Shown: in pieces, positions 2,789-33,009 of the stretch
How positions within the stretch are numbered: the stretch's first letter is position 1
Layout: every line of letters starts with the position of its first letter
Source of the DNA: a virus
DNA length: 34,876 bases
Direction: 5' to 3' (one strand)
IMG/VR virus record: IMGVR_UViG_3300032397_000041
Span: 1 to 34,876 of that record
The notes under the pieces: model-generated
What the model was told of the DNA's origin: nothing
Database searches by the model: none
What the model saw: only the letters and a program-made list of their open reading frames with translations
Made by a program: the position numbers and the translations under genes

Positions 2789-5700
2789 ATGCCACTTAAT
2801 AGAAGAACAGGTGAAGATAAAAAGAATTTTGTGAAAGATAAACAAACTCTTGATTCGTTTTCTAATTTTAACAATAAATTAGGATTAGGAACAGATAATC
2901 AGCTTTCTGGTGGCATGTATTCTTTGAACAATATGATTAGCCGAAATCATGTTGAGCTAGAAGCAGCTTATAGAAGCTCTTGGCTTATTGGTCAGGCAGT
3001 TGATGCTATTGCCGAGGATATGACAAAAAATGGTGTGACATTCTATTCCAAAATGGCTCCTGATGATATTCAAAAATTACAATCGGCAATTAGTGAGTAT
3101 GGGATTTGGTCTCAGCTTTGTGATACGATTAAATGGGCAAGATTGTATGGTGGAGCAATAGCAGTTATCTTGGTCGATGGTGCAAAATACGATAAACCAT
3201 TAAATACTGATGCAATTGGGAAGAAAAAATTTCAAGGTCTGCTTGTTCTTGATCGATGGATGATTCAACCAAGTTTTGAGCAGCTTGTAAAGGAAATGGG
3301 TAGGAATTTAGGAATGCCGGAGTTTTATAGAATAGTTCCGGCAGCCACAAACATTCCATTATTAAATATTCATTACACGAGAGCATTAAGGTTTGATGGA
3401 ATTAAATTACCATATTATCAAAAGTTGGCAGAAAATCTTTGGGGCCTGTCTGTAGTAGAGAGAATGCTCGATAGATTGATCGCTTATGATTCGGCTACGA
3501 TGGGTGCGGCCCAATTACTTTTTAAAGCATATTTAAGAGTGGTTCAAGTTGCAGGATTCAGAGAAGCATTATCGATAGGTGGCAAAGAAGAGCAAGCAGT
3601 TATTAAGCAATTCAAATATATGCGCCAGATGCAATCGATTGAAGGGATAACTCTTTTAGATAAAGAAGATAGTTTTGATGTTCATCCCTATACATTTGGA
3701 GGGATAGATTCGTTATTGACTCAATTTGGTACACAGATTTCAGGTGCAACAGGGATACCTATTGTGAGATTATTTGGCCAGTCTCCTGCTGGATTTAGTA
3801 CAGGCGAAGCCGATTTGAGAAACTATTATGACCATATAAATAAATTACAAGAGAATCAATTAAGACCTTATTTGGATAAGCTCTTTGCAGTTATCGCAAG
3901 ATCAGAATTAGGGAAAGAATTACCAGAAGACTTCGAATATGCATTTAATCCATTGTGGCAAATGAATGATAAGGAAAAATCTGAAATAGCAACTGCTGAT
4001 GTAACTGCTATTGGAGCTGCATTAGGAGCTGGCTTGATTGGGAAGAAAATAGCTTTGAAAGAGTTGTTACAGCAATCGAGAATTACAGGCAGGTTTACGA
4101 ACATTGAAGATGAAGATATTGAAGCAGCTGAGGAAGAAGATAAAAATAAACCACCTGAACCTGGGAGTGTCGAGCCTGGTGAAGAGTCAGACGAGGTCGA
4201 TACTGAAAAGAAAGAAAAAGAATTGCCTGATTCTACTATTGAAGAGCTAAAGAACAAGGAAGAACCAGAAGATCAAGAAACTTTTGGCGAGTTTAAAGAC
4301 GCCTTTGAAGAATCCGATCACCCGAGATCTAAAGAGGGGTCTTCTGGAGGTCAGTTCATTTCTAAAGGCGGTGGTTCCGCTTCATCTTCAAAGACTGAAA
4401 AGAAGTCTGAAAAGAAGACTGAAAAGAAGACTGAAAAGAAGACTGAAAAGAAGACTAAAAAGAAGACTAAATTAATAAGAGAGGGTATTGAGGCAAAAAT
4501 CAAAAATAAAGAAAGTCTTGAAGAAGTAGATTTTTTCAATATGGATTTGGCTGGTGCAAATTTGCGAGATGCAAATTTGCGAGGTGCAGATTTGACTGGC
4601 GTAAATTTGTCTAGTGCGAAATTGGCTGGTGCAAATTTGCGAGATGCAATTTTGACTGGTGCGAAATTGGCTAGTGCAGATTTGGTTGGTGCAAATTTGA
4701 CTGGTGCAGATTTGACTGGTGCAGATTTGACTTATGCAGATTTGACTTATGCAGATTTGACTTTTGCAGATTTGTCTAATGCAAATTTCTCTGGCGTAGA
4801 TTTAACTCGTGCAAATTTGTCGCGTGCAAATTTGACTGGCGCAAATTTTGCAAGTGCAGATTTGGTTGGTGCAAATTTGACTGGTGCAAATTTCTCTGGC
4901 GTAGATTTAACTCGTGCAAATTTGCGAGGTGCAAATTTGACTGGTGCAGATTTGTCTAATGCAAATTTGACTGGTGCAGATTTGCGAGATGCAAATTTGG
5001 TTGGTACAAAGTTTGCCGGTATAGATTTAAATTCTGTGAAGTTTGGAGATACCAATTTTAGTGATACAAATATAGACGGTGCACTTTTTGATGGCAAGAA
5101 AATTCCTAAAGAGTATTTTATCGATGTGAAAAGGACAAGTGAGATTGGTTCTAAAATATATTCTAAAGATAGAGTAAAGAATAAAGAAGTCGCAGAAGAA
5201 GTAATTAGTAAAAGAGTAGGAGAAAGCATAGCAATTGCAGGAGAAAACGTGTCGGTTAGAGAAATGATCGCGCAATGGGCTGGAACTTCAGGAGACAATA
5301 GTGAAACTTCTATTGGTTTACAATTAGCAGCTAAGGAAGTGTTTGACTTAAAAGATGCCGCTACTGATCATTGGGATATAAAACTTGAGAAAGAGGCTAC
5401 TCTAATAAGTAAAGAAAAAGGGGTAGTTAAATTTATAAAAGCTCAATATGACGAAACACAAGATTGGTTTAAAAAGAACGGTTATAAGCCAACTGATACA
5501 ATTATATTGTTTAGGGGAGTAGAAGGAAGGAGAAGTGGAAAGAAATCACGAACTGTTTTACAACCACTTTCTTCTTTTTCTACCTCTTATGCCGAGGCTT
5601 CAAAATTCGGGAGGTATCAGGTTTCCATAAAAATTCCTGTGTCTCAAATATTCAGTCATCCACAAACAGGGTTTGGATGCACAAATGAAAGTGAAATGGT

Positions 5701-6190
5701 TGTTTTAGGACGTAAAACCAATTTAGAACAAATAGATTCAAAGCTCAAAGCGATAAAATTATATCAAGAGGATAGCAGTAAAGATGCTGAACCGGAATTG
5801 GACGAAACAATAAATCTCGATGCTGATCTCAAAAATGCAGATTGGACTAAGAAGTCCTGGGATTTGCCTGAATTTGGTAGTGATGAATTTAATTCGTGGT
5901 TAAAAAATTCAAAAATAACTCTTGAACATTTTAAGACCCTCCCTGTTTATGAGAATAGAAGTAAAGGTATTCCTAAGTCTAAGATCATTGAGGAGTTTTT
6001 AAAAGGTAGAGAAGTGAAAGATGAATCTTATCCTGGTAATATGGGAGTAATGGAACTCTTTGAGTTTTATAAAAAGGCAAGCCCAGATGATGTTAGCTTG
6101 ATGGATAAGATTATTGCAAGAGCGAGTTGGGGAGAGTTTAAACAATTAATTAAAAAAGTATTGGGCGTGGTTTTGAAGGATTCTAAATGA
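2789..6190 (+). CDS. Portal protein fused to pentapeptide repeats and an R-S-E ADP-ribosyltransferase domain
   Basis: This 1133-residue protein is roughly twice the usual portal length. Residues 1-455 read as a DUF1073-type portal (SWLIGQAVDAIAEDMTKNG, LYGGAIAVILVDG, QSPAGFSTGEADLRNYYDHI). An acidic/Pro linker follows, with a DHPRSKEGSSGGQF motif at about 510-523, then six Lys-rich tetrapeptide units (536-559). About 37 pentapeptide repeats (584-768) predict a right-handed quadrilateral beta-helix. An ART domain covers about 780-990, with Arg909 in LFRG, Ser931-Thr-Ser933 and E967-S-E969: the R, STS and ExE motifs of R-S-E ADP-ribosyltransferases, all intact. A helical tail ends LKDSK. The stop TGA overlaps the next ATG. 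Mono-ADP-ribosylation of a host protein, probably on Arg, is inferred from the family; the target is unknown. Confidence 0.9.
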   Translation: MPLNRRTGEDKKNFVKDKQTLDSFSNFNNKLGLGTDNQLSGGMYSLNNMISRNHVELEAAYRSSWLIGQAVDAIAEDMTKNGVTFYSKMAPDDIQKLQSAISEYGIWSQLCDTIKWARLYGGAIAVILVDGAKYDKPLNTDAIGKKKFQGLLVLDRWMIQPSFEQLVKEMGRNLGMPEFYRIVPAATNIPLLNIHYTRALRFDGIKLPYYQKLAENLWGLSVVERMLDRLIAYDSATMGAAQLLFKAYLRVVQVAGFREALSIGGKEEQAVIKQFKYMRQMQSIEGITLLDKEDSFDVHPYTFGGIDSLLTQFGTQISGATGIPIVRLFGQSPAGFSTGEADLRNYYDHINKLQENQLRPYLDKLFAVIARSELGKELPEDFEYAFNPLWQMNDKEKSEIATADVTAIGAALGAGLIGKKIALKELLQQSRITGRFTNIEDEDIEAAEEEDKNKPPEPGSVEPGEESDEVDTEKKEKELPDSTIEELKNKEEPEDQETFGEFKDAFEESDHPRSKEGSSGGQFISKGGGSASSSKTEKKSEKKTEKKTEKKTEKKTKKKTKLIREGIEAKIKNKESLEEVDFFNMDLAGANLRDANLRGADLTGVNLSSAKLAGANLRDAILTGAKLASADLVGANLTGADLTGADLTYADLTYADLTFADLSNANFSGVDLTRANLSRANLTGANFASADLVGANLTGANFSGVDLTRANLRGANLTGADLSNANLTGADLRDANLVGTKFAGIDLNSVKFGDTNFSDTNIDGALFDGKKIPKEYFIDVKRTSEIGSKIYSKDRVKNKEVAEEVISKRVGESIAIAGENVSVREMIAQWAGTSGDNSETSIGLQLAAKEVFDLKDAATDHWDIKLEKEATLISKEKGVVKFIKAQYDETQDWFKKNGYKPTDTIILFRGVEGRRSGKKSRTVLQPLSSFSTSYAEASKFGRYQVSIKIPVSQIFSHPQTGFGCTNESEMVVLGRKTNLEQIDSKLKAIKLYQEDSSKDAEPELDETINLDADLKNADWTKKSWDLPEFGSDEFNSWLKNSKITLEHFKTLPVYENRSKGIPKSKIIEEFLKGREVKDESYPGNMGVMELFEFYKKASPDDVSLMDKIIARASWGEFKQLIKKVLGVVLKDSK
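4394..4465 (+). repeat. Six tandem 12-bp repeats (Lys-rich linker)
   Basis: There are six contiguous 12-base units of the form ACTGAAAAGAAG, with variants TCT and ACTAAA. They encode T-E-K-K repeats between the portal core and the pentapeptide domain. Exact period and sequence identity show a replication-slippage type expansion. Confidence 0.9.
4538..5092 (+). repeat. Pentapeptide-repeat DNA, 15-bp tandem units
   Basis: About 37 units of 15 bases encode A-(N/D)-L-x-x pentapeptides. Many units are identical (GCAAATTTGACTGGT type). A higher-order 105-bp period is visible: the block starting at 4781 restarts at 4886 with the same first 39 bases. Confidence 0.92.
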
Positions 6191-7206: not shown

Positions 7207-7374
7207 ATGGGTATTGATCAACTTGAAATAAACAGAGAATATTTAAATCATGTATTACGGAACAGTACTGTCAAGATTGAGGGCTGTTTGAAAGAAATAG
7301 AAACAATATTGATATTCATGAGAACATCTATAAAAGAATTTGTTGAAACCTTAAAGAATGGGCAGGAGGATTAA
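7207..7374 (+). CDS. Small helical protein, 55 residues
   Basis: The ORF starts at an ATG preceded by TAGGGGTTGAT, a usable ribosome site, and ends at TAA 7372-7374. The AGGAGG for the next gene lies within its last codons. The product (MGIDQLEINREYLNHVLRNS at the start) is predicted helical with alternating hydrophobic residues, suggesting a short coiled coil. I recognise no family. The tight spacing to both neighbours and the proper ribosome site support it as a real gene. Confidence 0.55.
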   Translation: MGIDQLEINREYLNHVLRNSTVKIEGCLKEIETILIFMRTSIKEFVETLKNGQED

Positions 7375-7375
7375 G

Positions 7376-7759
7376 ATGCTATTACAAGATGTGGCTATTA
7401 TAAATGGAATGGTAAGGGCGAAAGAAACTTTTGTGAAAGATTCCAGATTTAGCGATTCACCAAAATCAGATGCTATTGCAAAAGCAGAAGCTGATGCGAA
7501 AAAAGCAAATGCTGATGTAAAGAAAGCAATTGTTGATTTTGGGAAAGCCAAATCGATGAAAGATTCTAAAACAAAAGATTCACCTGAATCAGATGCTTTA
7601 GCAAAAGCAAAAGACGATTTGAAAAAAGCGCGAGCTAATTGGGAAAAGAAAAAAGCTGATTATAAGAAAGCAAGCGATGATTATGATAAAGCAAATGCTG
7701 CTTATTATAAAGCAGATGCTGCTTGGGAAAAAAGCCTATATAGATATAAGATTAAATAA
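7376..7759 (+). CDS. Ala/Lys heptad-repeat protein 5
   Basis: This 127-residue protein starts at the ATG at 7376, six bases after AGGAGG (7364-7369); an upstream in-frame ATG at 7358 has no such site. It has the type II leader (MLLQDVAIINGMVRAKE), closely like that of the InPase protein at 1512. Next comes the 55-bp module (VKDSRFSDSPKSDA), heptads, a second module (SMKDSKTKDSPESDA) and a second heptad block with Tyr at core positions. It ends basic (YRYKIK). The function is unrecognised. It shows that leaders, modules and heptad blocks recombine freely among paralogs. Confidence 0.8.
   Translation: MLLQDVAIINGMVRAKETFVKDSRFSDSPKSDAIAKAEADAKKANADVKKAIVDFGKAKSMKDSKTKDSPESDALAKAKDDLKKARANWEKKKADYKKASDDYDKANAAYYKADAAWEKSLYRYKIK
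7434..7488 (+). repeat. 55-bp dispersed module repeat, copy 2
   Basis: Identical to copy 1 (2552-2606) over 55 bases. It lies just after the leader of the gene at 7376 rather than internally, so the same module sits in different positions in different paralogs. Confidence 0.92.
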
Positions 7760-7778
7760 AATTTAGAATGGAGGCAAA

Positions 7779-8582
7779 ATGAAAGAATCAAGAATCATAA
7801 AAGATTATTTAAGAAGTAGAATAAGCGATTCACCTAAATCAGATGCTATGGCAAAAGCAAAAGCTGATTGGGATAAAGCAAGAGATGATTGGATAAAAGC
7901 AGATACTGATAAGAGTAAAACAAAAGCAGAAGCTGATTTTAACAGAGCAAATGCTTCTATGATGAAAGCAAAAGCTGATTGGATGAAAGCAGAAGCTGCT
8001 TGGAATAAAACAAGAGCTGATTTGATGAAAGCAAGAGCGATGAAAGATTCCAGATTTAGCGATTCACCAAAATCCGATGCTATTGCAAAAGCAGAAGCTG
8101 CTTGGAATAAAACAAGAGCTGATTTTATTAAAGCAGATGATGATTGGAAGAAAGCAAAAGCTGATTGGATGAAAGCAGATGCTGCTAGGGAAAAAGCAGA
8201 TGATGAATTGAGGAAAGCAAATGCTGCTTATTATAAAGCAAAGGTTGCTTTAGAAAAAGCAAAATCAATGAAAGACTCTAAAACAAAAGATTCAAAAATA
8301 GAGCTTATACGCACAAGTATTAGAAAGGATGCAGAAAAGCGTGCACCTTGGGCTAAGATTATTGTTAAGGTTAATGGTGGATACAAAGCATTTGAAAGTG
8401 TGAAAGATTATGAACAGTGGTCAAATATGAAAGACTCCAGATTTAGCGATTCACCTAAATCCGATGCTTTAGCTAAAGCAGAAGCTGTTTGGGAAAAAGC
8501 AGATGCTGCTTGGGTGAAGGCAAAAGCTGATAGAGACAAGGCGGATGCTGATTGGGCGAAAGCAGAAGCAATGGCAGAATAA
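7779..8582 (+). CDS. Ala/Lys heptad-repeat protein 6 with an embedded globular domain
   Basis: This 267-residue protein is the largest paralog. Order: type I leader (MKESRIIKDYLRSR), SDSPKSDA, heptads, 55-bp module copy 3 at about residue 88, heptads, then SMKDSKTKDS. A non-repeat domain follows at about 173-216 (APWAKIIVKVNGGYKAFESV), then module copy 4, a last heptad block and a short AMAE end. The ribosome site GGAGG is at 7769-7773. The embedded domain reads as a small alpha/beta fold flanked by KDS linkers, like the small domains in the gene at 10644. The function is unknown. Structural context implies virion association. Confidence 0.8.
   Translation: MKESRIIKDYLRSRISDSPKSDAMAKAKADWDKARDDWIKADTDKSKTKAEADFNRANASMMKAKADWMKAEAAWNKTRADLMKARAMKDSRFSDSPKSDAIAKAEAAWNKTRADFIKADDDWKKAKADWMKADAAREKADDELRKANAAYYKAKVALEKAKSMKDSKTKDSKIELIRTSIRKDAEKRAPWAKIIVKVNGGYKAFESVKDYEQWSNMKDSRFSDSPKSDALAKAEAVWEKADAAWVKAKADRDKADADWAKAEAMAE
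8041..8095 (+). repeat. 55-bp dispersed module repeat, copy 3
   Basis: One base differs from copies 1 and 2 (TCAGAT to TCCGAT). Internal to the gene at 7779. Confidence 0.9.
8428..8482 (+). repeat. 55-bp dispersed module repeat, copy 4
   Basis: The most diverged copy, with changes that are mostly synonymous. It follows the embedded globular domain in the gene at 7779. Confidence 0.85.
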
Positions 8583-16908: not shown

Positions 16909-18033
16909 ATGAGTAAAACTTTAGATCTGAATACAATTATAGATGTAGTAGTTCTGGTTTCTCCTTCATCTGCTCCAAGAGCTACATTTAATCAGTTGTT
17001 AATCTTAGGATCTTCCAGCGTAATCGATACAGACGAACGGTTACGGCAATATACTTCTGTTGCCGGAATGCTGGAAGATGGCTTTGGGTTATCCAGTATG
17101 GAAGTTTTGGCTGCATCAATGTATTTTGCCCAATCTCCTGCTCCTCAAATAGTTTGGATTGGGCGAAGGGATGAAACGGTTAGTCCTCCAGAGACAATAC
17201 TGGAAGCGTTGCAAGCTTGTAGAGTGGCAGATTCAGGATGGTATCAATGTTATTCAGCCGAAGTAATTTCTGTGGATATTCCAGCTATTGCTTTTTGGGC
17301 CGAGAGTGCTTCTCCTTCAACAGTATTTGCTTATAATTCTAAAGATGCAAATATTCTTGAACCTGATCCGTCTCCGTCTGATATAGCCACTACCTTAAAA
17401 GATGCTTCTTACAAAAGGTCGATAGGTCAATACAGTACGATTGATCATGCAATTGCCGGAGCTATGGGAGTTGCCAATGGACTAAATACTGGTTTGGCGA
17501 GTAGTGCGTTTACTATGTTTGCCAAACAAGTCGTGGGATGTACTACTCAGGATTTAACTTTTAACCAGAAACAAATTATTGAGGGGAAAAATTGCAATTT
17601 ATATCTATCATATTCCAATTATTATACCATCTTTGAGCCAGGGGTTATGGCAAATGGATATTTTTATGATCAGATTGTGAATCGGGATATGCTTGTGAAT
17701 GATATTCAATTGTCTTGTATGGATTTGCTTTTCCAAAATAGAGCGATTCCGCAAACAGAAGCAGGTATGACTATGATCTATAATGCTCTCGTTCAAGCTT
17801 GTCAATTAGCAGTTACGAGAGGATATTTAGGACCTGGGACATATACTGGTGTTCCATTTTTGAATTTGAATACAGGTGATCCAATGACGAATGGTTATGT
17901 TATCCAGAGCTTGCCATTGTCGGAGCAATCTCCTGCTGATAGAGCGTTGAGAAAAGCTACTCCTTTTTATGTTACAATTAAAGAGGCAGGAGCTGTACAT
18001 TCCATGACAATAGAAGTTGTGGTGTCGGTATAA
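16909..18033 (+). CDS. Tail sheath protein (DUF3383-like)
   Basis: This 374-residue protein is the contractile sheath. Evidence is the N-terminal IIDVVVLVSPSSAPRATFNQ followed by LLILGSS, the PAPQIVWIGRRDE strand near residue 78 and a C-terminal block with AVTRGYLGPGTYTGVPF, which together fit DUF3383 sheath proteins of short contractile tails. The tube gene follows directly. This gene shows the phage is a myovirus. Confidence 0.85.
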   Translation: MSKTLDLNTIIDVVVLVSPSSAPRATFNQLLILGSSSVIDTDERLRQYTSVAGMLEDGFGLSSMEVLAASMYFAQSPAPQIVWIGRRDETVSPPETILEALQACRVADSGWYQCYSAEVISVDIPAIAFWAESASPSTVFAYNSKDANILEPDPSPSDIATTLKDASYKRSIGQYSTIDHAIAGAMGVANGLNTGLASSAFTMFAKQVVGCTTQDLTFNQKQIIEGKNCNLYLSYSNYYTIFEPGVMANGYFYDQIVNRDMLVNDIQLSCMDLLFQNRAIPQTEAGMTMIYNALVQACQLAVTRGYLGPGTYTGVPFLNLNTGDPMTNGYVIQSLPLSEQSPADRALRKATPFYVTIKEAGAVHSMTIEVVVSV

Positions 18034-18060: not shown

Positions 18061-18507
18061 ATGGCGAAGATGTCAACTTATTCTTTTTTGGATTCTATAC
18101 TAATCATTACCCATCCAGATTTAAGTTCTCCCATTGTTTTGACTGGGGAGGGTGCTGGAAGCGTTACTGTTACTATGTCGGAGACCAGAACCGTTCATGA
18201 GGTTGCAGCAGATGGAGCTGTGATGGTATCCAAAGTGGCAGGTAATCAGGGGACAATAGCAATTGATGTTCAACAGACATCGAATGTGCATAAAAAATTA
18301 TTGAATCTATTTAACTCATTGGTAATTGGCAAGACTGATAAGTGGGCACAAGCTTCTATAAATATCAGGAATATTGCAGATGGTGCAGGTCATATCTGTA
18401 ATGGGGTGTCGCCACAGATAATTCCTGCTAAAGCATACGCTAAGGCAGGAGCACATCTAACATGGACATTTATGGCGGCTGACATCCAGAATACAACTGT
18501 AAATTAA
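18061..18507 (+). CDS. Tail tube protein (DUF3277-like)
   Basis: This 148-residue protein starts at ATG 18061, eight bases after AAGGAGG (18046-18052); an in-frame GTG at 18052 overlaps the ribosome site and is unlikely. The product begins MAKMSTYSFLDSILIITHPD. It contains GEGAGSVTVTMSETRTVHEV and ends LTWTFMAADIQNTTVN, the pattern of DUF3277 inner tube proteins. The location between sheath and chaperone is canonical. Confidence 0.85.
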   Translation: MAKMSTYSFLDSILIITHPDLSSPIVLTGEGAGSVTVTMSETRTVHEVAADGAVMVSKVAGNQGTIAIDVQQTSNVHKKLLNLFNSLVIGKTDKWAQASINIRNIADGAGHICNGVSPQIIPAKAYAKAGAHLTWTFMAADIQNTTVN

Positions 18508-18533: not shown

Positions 18534-18932
18534 ATGACGGAGAGGACAAAAACTTTTGAACTGCAAGGGAGCAGATTTCAAGTTTCAAAATTGACTGCTC
18601 TTGATGGTTCGAGTTTACTTAGAAAATTTAGTGGAAGTGGAATACAAGACCCTCAAGAGTTTCTATCGAAAATGCCGGATGTGGATTTCAGATCATTACA
18701 AATATTGCTGTTGAGTAATATATCGGAAATTCAGGTTATTAATGGTGTCGAGGTGATGTTACCGATAATTTTGCCGAGCGGAGTTATGGAAGGAAAAATA
18801 TCGGAGGATGCAAGTTTGGTTTGGATGTTGACTATGATTTCTCTGATGTTTAATCTGTCTGGTTTTTTCGTCGGGAGCGTATTGAAGGACTATCAAGTGG
18901 CGATGGAGAGTATCAATACGCTGAGACCTTAA
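18534..18932 (+). CDS. Tail assembly chaperone, short form
   Basis: This 132-residue protein is in the usual position before the tape measure gene. It starts TERTKTFELQGSRFQVSKLT and has a helical body. The zero-frame product ends at TAA 18930-18932. Residues 108-112 (LSGFF) overlie the T_TTT_TTC slippery heptamer, where a fraction of ribosomes would move to the -1 frame. The short form is the G-like chaperone that coats the tape measure. Confidence 0.85.
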   Translation: MTERTKTFELQGSRFQVSKLTALDGSSLLRKFSGSGIQDPQEFLSKMPDVDFRSLQILLLSNISEIQVINGVEVMLPIILPSGVMEGKISEDASLVWMLTMISLMFNLSGFFVGSVLKDYQVAMESINTLRP

Positions 18933-19096
18933 ATATCGATAAACTTGCATTCGCACCTGTTGTGGCAGGGTTTTGGAGACAGAAAGAAATTTGGGACGGG
19001 ACTTATAACATTGATGATCTGCTCGATATTTTAGAATTGATGGCAGTTAAAAATGAGAACGAAAAAAGATTTAACGAATCGAGAGGTAATTCATGA
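18534..19096 (+). CDS. Tail assembly chaperone, long form by -1 frameshift
   Basis: The product is about 187 residues: 112 residues of the short form up to 18869, then 75 residues in the -1 frame from base 18869 to TGA 19094-19096. The -1 frame is open through the otherwise empty region 18933-19092. It encodes a plausible folded segment (LAFAPVVAGFWRQKEIWDG) and ends by overlapping the tape measure ATG as ATGA. This is the lambda G-GT arrangement found in many long-tailed phages. Confidence 0.88.
18863..18922 (+). promoter_or_regulatory. -1 ribosomal frameshift signal: slippery heptamer plus stem
   Basis: The slippery heptamer T TTT TTC lies at 18863-18869 in the correct zero-frame phase (GGT TTT TTC). 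After a 6-base spacer, AGCGTATTGA (18876-18885) pairs perfectly with TCAATACGCT (18913-18922), a 10-bp stem with a 27-base loop. Spacing, stem length and phase are those of known -1 frameshift stimulators. Confidence 0.88.
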
Positions 19097-20985
19097 GTGA
19101 AGCAGATACCATAAAGAGTTATTTGATAAGCTTAGGCTTTAAGATCGACACCGAAGTTTATAAGAAATTTATGGATTCGATCAAAAATCTTGATGATAAA
19201 ATGGGGAAAACTACCTCTTTGATGTCAAGTTCTTGGGTAAAAAGTGGGGCAATAGTAGTTGGAGCTATGCTCACTATTATCGCTACTACAGCCAAATTAC
19301 TTCAGAGTCTTGCACAAGCCGATCTTGGTTATGAGAAATTTGCCATGCACATGTTTATGGCAAAAAATCAAGCCAAGCAATTTAAAATAGTAACAGACGC
19401 AATGGGAGAGTCGATTGAGAATATGCGATGGATTCCAGAGCTTCAAAAGAAGTTTACTGAATTAAAATTTGATGCTATGCGGATGGAATTGCCAAAGCAA
19501 TATGAAGAGGAGATGAAAAAGATTCGTGGGATAAATACTGAGTTCACCAGATTAAAAATAGAATCGACTTATGCTCTTCAATGGATAGGATTTAATATTG
19601 CAAAGAATCTGTCTGGGCCTATGGCTGACATTAAAGAAAAGTTTGCAGGATTTAATGAATATATAATAAAACATTTGCCGGAGATCGCCAAGAAGATTTC
19701 CGATATACTTAGTCCGATTATAGGGATAATAGTGAATGTAGGAAAAGCTATATTGACGGTTATTGGGGTTGTTAAAAAATTATGGGATTCTTTTTCTCCT
19801 GAACAACGAGCCTTGGTTGTTTTGTTTTTTGCGACAATGTTGATTTATCTGTTTCCGATTACAGCAGCGATAGTCAGCTTGACTTTGGTTGTCAGTGAAT
19901 TCATGGATTTGTTTGCTGGGAAAAAGACTTTGCTTCCATCTGCTTTTTTAAAGGGATTGATGATCTCTACTCTTTTGGCTCTTACTCCATTGAATGCTCT
20001 TTATGTTATATTAAGGTCTGTCGCTACTGAAATGGCTGCTCTTGCAGCGATAGCTGTTTCTCTTTTTAAAGGATTAGCTAATCCCAGTACTCTAAAATCT
20101 GAGCTTGAAAATATAGTAGATGTTCAAAAGCAGGCAGTTAAGATTATTGCTAAAGGGTGGATTCCAGATACATTGAAGTCTTCTTGGAAGATACTCTTTC
20201 CAAGTGAAGAAGATAAAAAAGACAGTATGTTTTATTGGAACGATAAAGAAAGAGACGAAGCTATAAAAAATGCTATTGCAGGAAAAGGTCAAGTAAGAGA
20301 TGTAGATTTGGATAAGTCGAAAACATCTTCTGTTCAAGTCCCATTGGGTTCACAAGGAACTGGTTTGCCAGCAGATTATGTGCCCAGATCAGGAAAGCCT
20401 GGAAAACAAACAATTCCAAATGAAGATATAATGAGAGAGGCACAAAGAGCATCGAAAGAATTGAATATTCCTGCAAATTTAATTTTCGCACAATGGTATG
20501 GAGAGACGGGTGGATTCAAACAGTACTCCGGAGCTTTCAATTTGGGCAATATTGAAAATAAAAATAGACAAGCAGGAGAAGGTCGTTTTCAACATTACTC
20601 TTCACTAACAAATTATGGAGATGCTTATATCGATTTGATGAAAAGAAATTATCAGAAAACAAGAGGTGTGAAGACTTCTGAGGAGTTCTCTTCAAAATTG
20701 AAACAGGGAAGAGTCGGGGGATATTTTGAGGAGCCAGAAGACTTTTACACTAAAATGTTAAAATTAAATGAAGACAAATATGGTATTGCTGGTGGTGGAG
20801 CAATGAATAATAGCAACAATACTAATAATGTAAATGTTACGATAGCTATTGATGGATCGAGAGACCCTAAAGAGATCGGAAGGGCCGTTGTTTCGTCAAT
20901 CAATAATTTTATGCACCACAATCAATCTGTTGCCGATTATAAGAAAAAACCACAATCTGCTTCTATTGCAGGGGTGAGAGGATAA
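19093..20985 (+). CDS. Tape measure protein with a C-terminal murein hydrolase-like domain
   Basis: This 630-residue protein has an N-terminal ADTIKSYLISLGFKIDTEVY typical of this tape measure group, several hydrophobic segments (near 50-75 and 200-330) and a long helical middle. From about residue 441 to 560 there is a lysozyme/glucosaminidase-like domain: EAQRASKELNIPANLIFAQW, then a candidate catalytic Glu471 in YGETGGF and a NLGNIENKNRQAGE loop. This would open peptidoglycan during DNA entry. The end carries an Asn-rich linker and a beta segment (NVNVTIAIDGSRDPKEIG). By the usual 0.15 nm per residue rule the tail is at most about 95 nm. Confidence 0.85.
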   Translation: MSEADTIKSYLISLGFKIDTEVYKKFMDSIKNLDDKMGKTTSLMSSSWVKSGAIVVGAMLTIIATTAKLLQSLAQADLGYEKFAMHMFMAKNQAKQFKIVTDAMGESIENMRWIPELQKKFTELKFDAMRMELPKQYEEEMKKIRGINTEFTRLKIESTYALQWIGFNIAKNLSGPMADIKEKFAGFNEYIIKHLPEIAKKISDILSPIIGIIVNVGKAILTVIGVVKKLWDSFSPEQRALVVLFFATMLIYLFPITAAIVSLTLVVSEFMDLFAGKKTLLPSAFLKGLMISTLLALTPLNALYVILRSVATEMAALAAIAVSLFKGLANPSTLKSELENIVDVQKQAVKIIAKGWIPDTLKSSWKILFPSEEDKKDSMFYWNDKERDEAIKNAIAGKGQVRDVDLDKSKTSSVQVPLGSQGTGLPADYVPRSGKPGKQTIPNEDIMREAQRASKELNIPANLIFAQWYGETGGFKQYSGAFNLGNIENKNRQAGEGRFQHYSSLTNYGDAYIDLMKRNYQKTRGVKTSEEFSSKLKQGRVGGYFEEPEDFYTKMLKLNEDKYGIAGGGAMNNSNNTNNVNVTIAIDGSRDPKEIGRAVVSSINNFMHHNQSVADYKKKPQSASIAGVRG

Positions 20986-30171: not shown

Positions 30172-30858
30172 ATGAATTGGCTTATAGAAAAATTCAGACA
30201 CAAGAGTGGAATTGAGATTGGTGGATTTAGTCATATATTTTCTAAGAATGGCAGTATACCAATTTACCCAGTTGTCGATTCTCTTGATTGTTGTAATTTT
30301 AGCAAGCAGACAATTTGGGAAGGAGCTTTGGAAGAGGGGCAGAATTTTCTCTATGATGATAAAGTTGGTTATCGGTATATTTGCGAGGCAACAGAATTAA
30401 GCAAAAAGATTTCATTGTTCACTCATGATTTTGTTATCTCTTCTAATTGTTTTGAGCATATAGCCAATCCATTAAAAGCGCTTAATGAATTTTTGGAAAT
30501 AGTAAATGAGAATGGAATTATTCTTTTGGTGGTTCCAAAGAAAGAAGTCAATTTTGATCACAAGAGACAAGTGACTTCCTTTAATCATTTGGAAGAGGAC
30601 TTTGAAATGGATATTGGAGAAAACGATCTATCTCATTTTGAAGAGATAATGGAGCTGCACGATTTGTCTATGGATTTGCCAGCTGGAACCATTAAGCAGT
30701 TCAAGGAACGGTCTTTAAAGAATTACGAGAACAGAGCATTGCACCATCATGTGTTTGACATGCAGCGTTTGTTTGATATTTATGATTATTTTCATTTGAA
30801 AATAATTGCAAGTATGGAAATGAAAACAGATTATTTTATTGCAGGATGCTTAAAATGA
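30172..30858 (+). CDS. SAM-dependent methyltransferase-like protein
   Basis: This 228-residue protein has a glycine motif at residues 13-18 (GIEIGG) and the core block DFVISSNCFEHIANPLKALN at about 86-105 followed by a hydrophobic strand (GIILLVVPKK), the class I methyltransferase order. A FDHKRQVTSFNHL segment is typical of small-molecule or glycan-related members. The substrate is unknown. It overlaps the next gene (ATGA), so it probably works with the glycan-type genes that follow. Confidence 0.72.
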   Translation: MNWLIEKFRHKSGIEIGGFSHIFSKNGSIPIYPVVDSLDCCNFSKQTIWEGALEEGQNFLYDDKVGYRYICEATELSKKISLFTHDFVISSNCFEHIANPLKALNEFLEIVNENGIILLVVPKKEVNFDHKRQVTSFNHLEEDFEMDIGENDLSHFEEIMELHDLSMDLPAGTIKQFKERSLKNYENRALHHHVFDMQRLFDIYDYFHLKIIASMEMKTDYFIAGCLK

Positions 30859-31475
30859 AATTATTGGTAAATAAATTTAAAGATGAGGCTGTTTGGATTG
30901 TGGGTAAGGGACCAAGCTTGCAGTATCTTCGAAAAGAGCATATTTTAAGTGGACCCATAATTACTCTTAATCAAGCTATTTTAGCAGTTGAAAATCTCAA
31001 CTTTCCTAATCCTATTTTCTCTCTGCAAAAAGATGGTGGAAACAAATTAATTTATGATCAAGCTACTCAGTCTTTAATTTGTCTTCATTCGCCTAATTGT
31101 GGAAATTCTTGTGAGGACATGGTTAGGCCAAAAGAGGCTTTTTTGATGGTTGATATTCACGAATCTTTGTATTGTTTTCCAGATTATACTCCTCGTCTGG
31201 TTTATGATTGGGCAGACTTTGGAATGGTAGAGAATGAATTTTCTTTGGTTATAGCAATTAAGATTGGTCAGTTGATGGGATGTTCTAAGTTTGTGCTTGT
31301 GTGTTGTGATGCTCATGCAGGTGGGGAAAGTGATAAGTTGTATATTCCGAATGTAGGAGTAGTTTATGAACAGGGATTACCACTTTATAAGGCGCAGATA
31401 GATAAGTTAAAACCTTTTTTGAGTGGATTAGATGTTAAATTTATTATGCCAGAGAGTAATGATGAAAGTAGATAA
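30855..31475 (+). CDS. DUF115-like protein with GxGPSL motif
   Basis: This 206-residue protein starts at ATG 30855 (ATGA overlap); an earlier in-frame ATG at 30846 has no ribosome spacing. VWIVGKGPSLQYL near residue 13 is the GxGPSL motif of DUF115/Maf-like proteins, and SLVIAIKIGQLMGCSKFVLV with CCDAHAG is the second Rossmann-like landmark. It is larger than, but related in fold to, the protein at 28885. Role in glycan transfer is inferred. It overlaps the glycosyltransferase gene by 14 bases. Confidence 0.6.
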   Translation: MKLLVNKFKDEAVWIVGKGPSLQYLRKEHILSGPIITLNQAILAVENLNFPNPIFSLQKDGGNKLIYDQATQSLICLHSPNCGNSCEDMVRPKEAFLMVDIHESLYCFPDYTPRLVYDWADFGMVENEFSLVIAIKIGQLMGCSKFVLVCCDAHAGGESDKLYIPNVGVVYEQGLPLYKAQIDKLKPFLSGLDVKFIMPESNDESR

Positions 31476-33009
31476 TGTCGTAACAGGTATAGTTGTTTCG
31501 TGGAATACTAAGGATTTGATTGAAAGAGCATATTCCTCTATCAGAAAATTTCATCCTTTTATGAAGATTATAATTGTAGATGGTTCTGATAGAAGCAATG
31601 ATTGTTTTAAATATGTTAGTGGATTGACGAACAATATTAATACCAGAGTATTTCATGTGGATCAAAATATAGGACATGGTCGAGGTCTTTGTGTTGGAAT
31701 AGAAAAGGCAGAGACACAGTACGCCTTGATATTTGATTCAGACATTGAGATGTTGAAGTCTCCTGTCCAGGAAATAATGGATATGATGGAAGATGGAACT
31801 TATGGAGTGGGTTATACTGAGAAAACTGCTTTTGATGGTCACGAATGGGGTTGCAATCCGATTCATAAAACGCAGGGATGGATGCGTTATTTGCATCCAT
31901 ATTTCTGTTTAATAGATTTGATAGAATATAAAAAATACAGACCATTTATTCATCATGGTGCTCCTGCTGTTAATACTATGCTTGATATCCATCGAAGAGG
32001 GCTGGGAGATAAAGTTATTAAGGAATTTCCTGGTCTTGGCCATTCGTCTGGGAAAGGGTGGGTCTGGGAAGGGAAGCCAAGAGAGTTTATTAAGCATGAT
32101 ACCCAAGGTACACGAGCTTTTCGAGTTTCAAAAGGAATGTCTGAGATCGAGGGTATTTGGGAAAAGGTAGATAAGATTGACAAAAGAGCAAGTAATGTGA
32201 CTTGTATTACAGCAACTGGAGATCGGCCTCTTGCTTTTTCTTTGTGTAGAAAATGGATGCGAGCACAAACAGTAAGTCTGTCTCAATGGATTGTTGTCGA
32301 TGATGGAAAGTATCCAATAGGTGACACAAAATCAGATAACATTGATTATATCAGACGAGAACCAAGAGATGATGATCCGAAGCATACAATGATTTTAAAT
32401 TTAAAAGAAGCTTTTAGGGCAGTGCAAGGAAGTAGGGTACTGTTTATCGAAGACGATGAATATTACGCCCCAACTTATATTGAAGAGATGTTGAAGAAAC
32501 TTGAAGAATATGAGCTGGTTGGGATAGGAAGAAGTAAATATTACTATCTTCCAACATTTAAATATGGGGTTCATTTTAATATTGGTCATGCAAGTTTGGC
32601 TCAAACTGCTTTTAACACAAGTATTTTTAATGATATAAAAGATTGTCTTGATGGAGACTCTTATCTTGATATTCGGATTTGGAGTTTAGTAAATGAAGAG
32701 GTCGGGAGACAGGCAAATTCGAGAAGTGAAGCAGATAATATTTCCTCAAATGGAAGAGGAATAGTTTTTGATGATAGAGAGAGCAGCTTATATGTAGGCA
32801 TGAAGGGACTTCCAGGGAGACTTGGTATCGGAAGTGGTCATTTTAGCAATCAATCGTTTTATCACAACGATGTTAATAAATCTGTTTTGAGTAAATGGAT
32901 TCCTAAAAAAGCAGATTTTGAAACATACACTCATTTATTCGAGAGCATTAGAAGGAGAATTAGTGTTGACAAGGGGCTTTTGGTTGGAACAGGGTCTAAA
33001 ACAATTTAA
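31462..33009 (+). CDS. Two-domain GT-A glycosyltransferase
   Basis: This 515-residue protein has two family-2-like halves. The first (about 5-235) has GIVVSWNTKDLIERAYSSIR, IIIVDGSD and a DSD metal motif at 92-94. The second (about 243-500) has CITATGDRPLAFSLCRKWMR, WIVVDDG and EDD at 330-332. Both acidic motifs are intact. The start ATG 31462 is preferred to 31459 by one codon; spacing to AGAGAG is marginal for both. It would transfer sugars to an unknown acceptor: host surface glycan, virion protein or DNA. Confidence 0.78.
   Translation: MKVDNVVTGIVVSWNTKDLIERAYSSIRKFHPFMKIIIVDGSDRSNDCFKYVSGLTNNINTRVFHVDQNIGHGRGLCVGIEKAETQYALIFDSDIEMLKSPVQEIMDMMEDGTYGVGYTEKTAFDGHEWGCNPIHKTQGWMRYLHPYFCLIDLIEYKKYRPFIHHGAPAVNTMLDIHRRGLGDKVIKEFPGLGHSSGKGWVWEGKPREFIKHDTQGTRAFRVSKGMSEIEGIWEKVDKIDKRASNVTCITATGDRPLAFSLCRKWMRAQTVSLSQWIVVDDGKYPIGDTKSDNIDYIRREPRDDDPKHTMILNLKEAFRAVQGSRVLFIEDDEYYAPTYIEEMLKKLEEYELVGIGRSKYYYLPTFKYGVHFNIGHASLAQTAFNTSIFNDIKDCLDGDSYLDIRIWSLVNEEVGRQANSRSEADNISSNGRGIVFDDRESSLYVGMKGLPGRLGIGSGHFSNQSFYHNDVNKSVLSKWIPKKADFETYTHLFESIRRRISVDKGLLVGTGSKTI

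Follow-up and report, generated by a model that had tools for sequence, protein, structure and literature searches.

In the 34,876-base IMG/VR virus record analysed here over its whole length (hereafter the window), the tail genes lie on the + strand in the order sheath, tube, chaperone, extension and tape measure. A tail sheath protein is encoded at 16909-18033 (PF11863 DUF3383, E=5e-58; phrog_205 tail sheath, E=2e-75), followed by a probable tail tube protein of the KPP10_Orf10 / DUF3277 family at 18061-18507 (PF11681, E=1e-39), a 132-aa short-form tail assembly chaperone (TAC-N) at 18534-18932, and a tape measure protein gene at 19093-20985, the last assigned by its position and by weak matches to tape measure PHROGs. 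The chaperone is thus placed between the tail tube and tape measure genes, as expected of a G/GT-type pair. The window TAC-N itself matches PF21822 (Phage_TAC_15) weakly, at E=6e-4, just below the curated cutoff, and also gives a weak match to phrog_1688 (tail assembly chaperone); among 41 aligned chaperone relatives, PF21822 is matched by 38 and phrog_1688 by 39. NCBIfam yielded no model for either the chaperone or the extension.

Near the 3' end of the chaperone gene, the codon boundaries GGT TTT TTC (18861-18869) of the open reading frame 18534-18932 set a slippery heptamer, T_TTT_TTC (18863-18869), in the zero-frame phase. The heptamer is followed by (i) a 6-nt spacer, GTCGGG (18870-18875), (ii) the 5' arm of a putative stimulatory stem, AGCGTATTGA (18876-18885), (iii) a 27-nt loop (18886-18912), and (iv) the 3' arm, TCAATACGCT (18913-18922), which is a perfect 10-bp complement of the first. 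The −1 frame extension, a T-like domain, spans 18863-19096; past the slip site it reads RRERIEG and onward, remaining open for 75 codons to a TGA at 19094-19096 that overlaps the tape-measure ATG (19093-19095) in a 4-nt ATGA. The tape measure ribosome-binding site, GAGAGG (19081-19086), sits within the extension. An earlier note on this DNA had described the in-phase heptamer, the spacer, stem and loop, and the open −1 frame running into the tape measure start; each is present as it described.

Slippery heptamers are common by themselves, with 79 in-phase X_XXY_YYZ motifs in the genes of the window, and a chance heptamer, or an assembly error splitting one gene into two frames, might in principle produce such an arrangement. 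Of these 79, only the one at 18863-18869 is followed 4-10 nt downstream by a perfect stem of more than 8 bp. A 10-bp stem so placed occurs at 0.1% of all window positions, such that about 0.08 would be expected among the 79 heptamers. Moreover, the same arrangement recurs in 139 of 140 homologous loci with both parts, drawn from many assemblies and host groups and including the genomes of named isolates. The probability of chance or misassembly is negligible, and this explanation is already refuted by the homolog set.

That set comprises 145 loci including the window, gathered from viral contigs and bacterial genomes by patterns derived from the extension; in the two large scans these patterns lie downstream of the heptamer, so that the heptamer itself was not selected for. 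The extension was the productive query, with no relatives returned by a viral-contig search using the chaperone alone or the tube protein alone, nor by tblastn of the chaperone in phage records. Some loci represent the same genome in two collections, and 94 are distinct by k-mer content. The hosts of the bacterial loci are mostly Bacillota (Clostridia metagenome-assembled genomes [MAGs], Clostridium, Sporomusa, Paenibacillus, Brevibacillus and Alicyclobacillus); one locus, L087, comes from the culturable Clostridium hydrogeniformans DSM 21757.

T_TTT_TTN stands in the right phase in 136 of the 145 loci, ending in TTC in 107, TTT in 26, TTA in 2 and TTG in 1. Among the remaining nine, three are intact and carry another in-phase slippery motif: G_GGC_CCT overlapping C_CCT_TTC in L075, and GTT_TTT and CTT_TTT in L033 and L139, leaving a U_UU.U tetramer. 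The other six comprise two cut by contig ends (L072 and L138), one that is decayed (L123), and three with the extension and no detected chaperone (L121, L142 and L144). Both parts are present in 140 loci, and in all of these but L123 (139 of 140) the extension occupies the −1 frame relative to the chaperone. From the codon usage of these chaperone genes, and with both phenylalanines kept, T_TTT would be expected in approximately 12.5 of the 94 distinct loci (~13%), and in 5% for GC-rich genes; as the 94 distinct loci were picked for having the motif, the observation to set against this is 136 of the 140 loci in which both parts are present. The earlier note had named stops in the −1 extension, or conservation of neither heptamer nor stem, as findings against frameshifting; a survey of the 145 loci for these did not refute it.

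Some Clostridia MAGs hold many copies of the tail module on separate contigs (at least 6 in RUG10998); the loci concerned here are L121, L142 and L144, as well as L091, L099, L101, L104 and L119. The three loci with an extension and no detectable chaperone may be remnants, rearrangements or assembly joins.

Slippage of RNA polymerase on the T run, in place of ribosome slippage, would also give mRNAs fusing both frames. Transcriptional slippage on homopolymers is known, and the slip site here consists of 6 consecutive T, lengthening to 7 in some relatives; runs of 6-7 are nonetheless short for efficient polymerase slippage. In L075, the T run is replaced by GGGCCCTTTC, in which in-phase tandem-slip heptamers are kept without a long homopolymer. 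The hairpin 5-9 nt downstream of the slip site likewise suits a ribosomal signal, and we regard polymerase slippage as extremely unlikely.

For the RNA downstream of the heptamer, folding recovers the reported stem at −19.5 kcal/mol, with a modest single-sequence z of −1.7. The long stem is kept in 7 distinct close relatives, where 90% of cells are paired versus 17-39% for slid stem controls. Three pairs are changed on both sides, a covariation that is real but small with 7 distinct close relatives and that was reached by 11 of 500 shuffles. Across the 94 distinct loci, 50-nt segments that start anywhere between 12 nt upstream and 6 nt downstream of the heptamer end have a mean folding z of approximately −0.8 to −1.1, and at most other offsets out to 150 nt the mean is close to zero. 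An unbroken stem of 7 bp or more, starting 5-9 nt downstream, is found at 43% of sites versus 9% of control positions; such a stem is therefore not universal, being present in fewer than half of the distinct relatives. Among the long-stem relatives, the spacer is most often 6-7 nt long. Of the two features whose conservation the earlier note proposed to check, the heptamer is near-universal, and the stem is maintained with covariation in close relatives and often gives way in distant ones to another hairpin at the same distance from the heptamer. As the hairpin varies between subgroups, its position is conserved more than its sequence.

A pseudoknot, for which the earlier note saw room in the 27-base loop, is possible through contact of CAAGT in the loop (18894-18898) with ACTTG downstream of the stem (18943-18947). 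This 5-bp pairing is complete in the window, L002 and L006 (with one G-U in L006) and broken in the other 4 of the 7 distinct relatives, with some compensatory change; its pairing percentage was reached by 67 of 500 shuffles. No Shine-Dalgarno-like stimulator was seen by eye in the 25 nt upstream of the heptamer.

The extension is itself a conserved domain. In the window, it matches PF21829 (DUF6889) at E=7e-6, with 26.2 bits against a gathering cutoff of 23.9 and the match at approximately 18974-19075, and phrog_4364 at E=8e-11. Both families are listed with function unknown, and both are matched by the extensions of all 64 sampled relatives. AlphaFold2 models the extension confidently as a small helical domain (pLDDT 89). 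A fold search with this model in the PDB and BFVD gave no significant match, the best BFVD rows being small uncharacterised phage proteins (E 0.26-0.61); the extension profile matched no solved structure, and no mention of DUF6889 was found in the literature searched.

Public annotations of Klebsiella phage GZ7 and KPP10 list a separate hypothetical open reading frame here, in keeping with the extension being a small gene with its own start, translated via reinitiation or coupling after the chaperone. The window extension, by contrast, has its first in-frame ATG/GTG/TTG only at codon 33, within the conserved PVVAG core; in 56 of the 94 distinct relatives, the part of the −1 frame that is open ahead of the heptamer lacks any start codon. 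The conserved protein instead begins at the slip site, with F1, F2 and R4 at the start of the extension invariant. A separate gene would, furthermore, need neither the heptamer nor a fixed frame relation, and this alternative is highly unlikely. On these grounds we reject the separate-gene reading, and on those given above the transcriptional-slippage reading.

The comparative signals at this locus are (i) the heptamer and its phase, (ii) conservation of the slippery motif and frame, (iii) stem covariation in close relatives, and (iv) the extension as a conserved domain. The frameshift reading put forward in the earlier note is supported above all by the near-universal heptamer in its phase and by a conserved domain held open in the −1 frame; from such sequence comparison we infer slippage itself. 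The best reading of the locus (probability about 0.95) is that this phage tail chaperone gene undergoes −1 programmed ribosomal frameshifting; it is very probably a classic lambda G/GT-type element of an uncultured contractile-tailed phage.

Under a frameshift mechanism, most ribosomes would complete the 132-aa TAC-N, with a minority pausing at the downstream hairpin. There, helped by the hairpin, both tRNAs (tandem tRNA-Phe) would move back by one base on U_UUU_UUC and re-pair, and reading on in the −1 frame would yield a 187-aa TAC-NC with a C-terminal DUF6889 domain. Motifs of the form H_HH.U_UU.Y (H = U, C or A) rank with the most efficient in E. coli, where C_CC.U_UU.C, the motif of L075, likewise gives high-level shifting (PMC4066793). 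Two HK97-like chaperone genes shift at 6-7% by experiment (PMC3711429), and the efficiency here is probably in the range of a few to about 10 percent. Lambda has a short form that coats the tape measure and an extended one by which the tube protein is recruited (PMC5009743); by analogy with G/GT, TAC-N may coat the tape measure, with the extension recruiting the tail-tube protein and the ratio of the two forms being important. On the same analogy, mature virions would be expected to contain neither form.

Several established systems provide points of comparison. Lambda is a siphovirus with G_GGA_AAG, and Xu, Hendrix and Duda reportedly described the conserved tail-chaperone frameshift in 2004. 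Contractile-tailed phage P2 has a T-run heptamer and a −1 shift in its E/E+E' pair. P2 thus resembles the window in its contractile tail, T-run heptamer and −1 shift, and differs in its protein families. The window shares with lambda G/GT a short and a −1 extended chaperone between the tube and tape measure genes (reviewed in PMC5009743), and differs from it in having a contractile tail, T_TTT_TTC and a strong hairpin; here the comparison is one of arrangement. The same review describes frameshifted tail chaperones as widespread and gives a higher frameshift efficiency for P2 (PMC5009743).

Closer in gene content are Brunovirus SEN34, Klebsiella phage GZ7, Elizabethkingia phage EKP1 and Acinetobacter phage BUCTT20, which share the DUF3383 sheath, DUF3277 tube, chaperone and tape measure. 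In all four, an in-phase slip motif occurs close to where the chaperone gene ends and the −1 extension is open; these extensions match the profile of the window group weakly (E=3e-7 to 9e-6). They differ from the window in their motifs (G_GGA_AAT / A_AAT_TTT / T_TTT_TTG) and are distant in sequence. KPP10 likewise has an open −1 extension, with only an in-phase slippery tetramer near the chaperone 3' end; its extension gave no match to the extension profile of the window group (E=0.64). In the stretches examined of the KPP10, SEN34, GZ7, EKP1 and BUCTT20 records, no joined product is annotated. The sequence GGGAAATTTTTTG is found at the chaperone 3' end of Klebsiella, Elizabethkingia and Salmonella Brunovirus-like phages (L148 2813-2825, L149 2831-2843, L150 2843-2855), and forms three overlapping in-phase slippery heptamers in a row: G_GGA_AAT, A_AAT_TTT and T_TTT_TTG.

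For the Vandenendeviridae (Pakpunavirus Adele and KPP10 relatives) and Andersonviridae, a TAC-N/TAC-NC −1 frameshift was proposed in 2025, with GTTTTT as the conserved slip site and a −1 extension that is open (PMC12846349). The window resembles these phages in (i) gene order, (ii) a T-rich slip site at the chaperone 3' end, and (iii) a −1 frame that stays open as far as the tape measure, its extension being mis-annotated in most cases as a hypothetical gene. In those families the slip motif is GTTTTT, against T_TTT_TTY here, and stem covariation is found here whereas the accessible text of PMC12846349 reports none for these families.

The frameshift principle is long established, and its kind has already been proposed for the related myoviruses Vandenendeviridae and Andersonviridae. 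What our comparison adds is that DUF6889 (PF21829) and phrog_4364 would be the C-terminal domain of the chaperone, made by frameshift only, so that one Pfam and one PHROG family of unknown function would gain a role. More broadly, we consider it likely that DUF6889, phrog_4364 and probably phrog_3976 are not independent proteins. Across a large group of phages and prophages with contractile tails, most of them from Bacillota (Clostridia, Paenibacillus, Alicyclobacillus and Brevibacillus), they would be produced almost exclusively as the C-terminal domain that −1 frameshifting adds to a TAC_15-type chaperone, and this lineage would be related to the tail modules of Brunovirus and Pakpunavirus. 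The extended chaperone is missed or mis-split by annotation; in isolates such as Agathobaculum phage AB434P2, it falls in an unannotated gap. With its natural swaps of heptamer (T_TTT_TTC, T_TTT_TTT, C_CCT_TTC) and of hairpin type, the homolog set constitutes a ready series for asking which features of the signal set the ratio of short to long chaperone.

Elsewhere in the window, a 1133-aa open reading frame at 2789-6190 combines a phage portal domain (PF06381, E=4e-109) with pentapeptide repeats (PF00805, E=2e-53) and a weak, below-cutoff ADP-ribosyltransferase-like match (PF07357 DRAT, E=3e-4). Flanking the portal and Mu F-like genes, at 897-2769 and 7358-8582, are several small open reading frames with K/A/D-rich coiled-coil-like repeats (e.g., KADADWDKA) and recurring MKDSRIIKDYLRSR and DSPKSDA starts; scans of two of them (2248-2766 and 7779-8579) gave no Pfam match above cutoff. 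Near the right end of the window, after the structural genes, open reading frames at 30172-33009 resemble a methyltransferase and a glycosyltransferase by eye.
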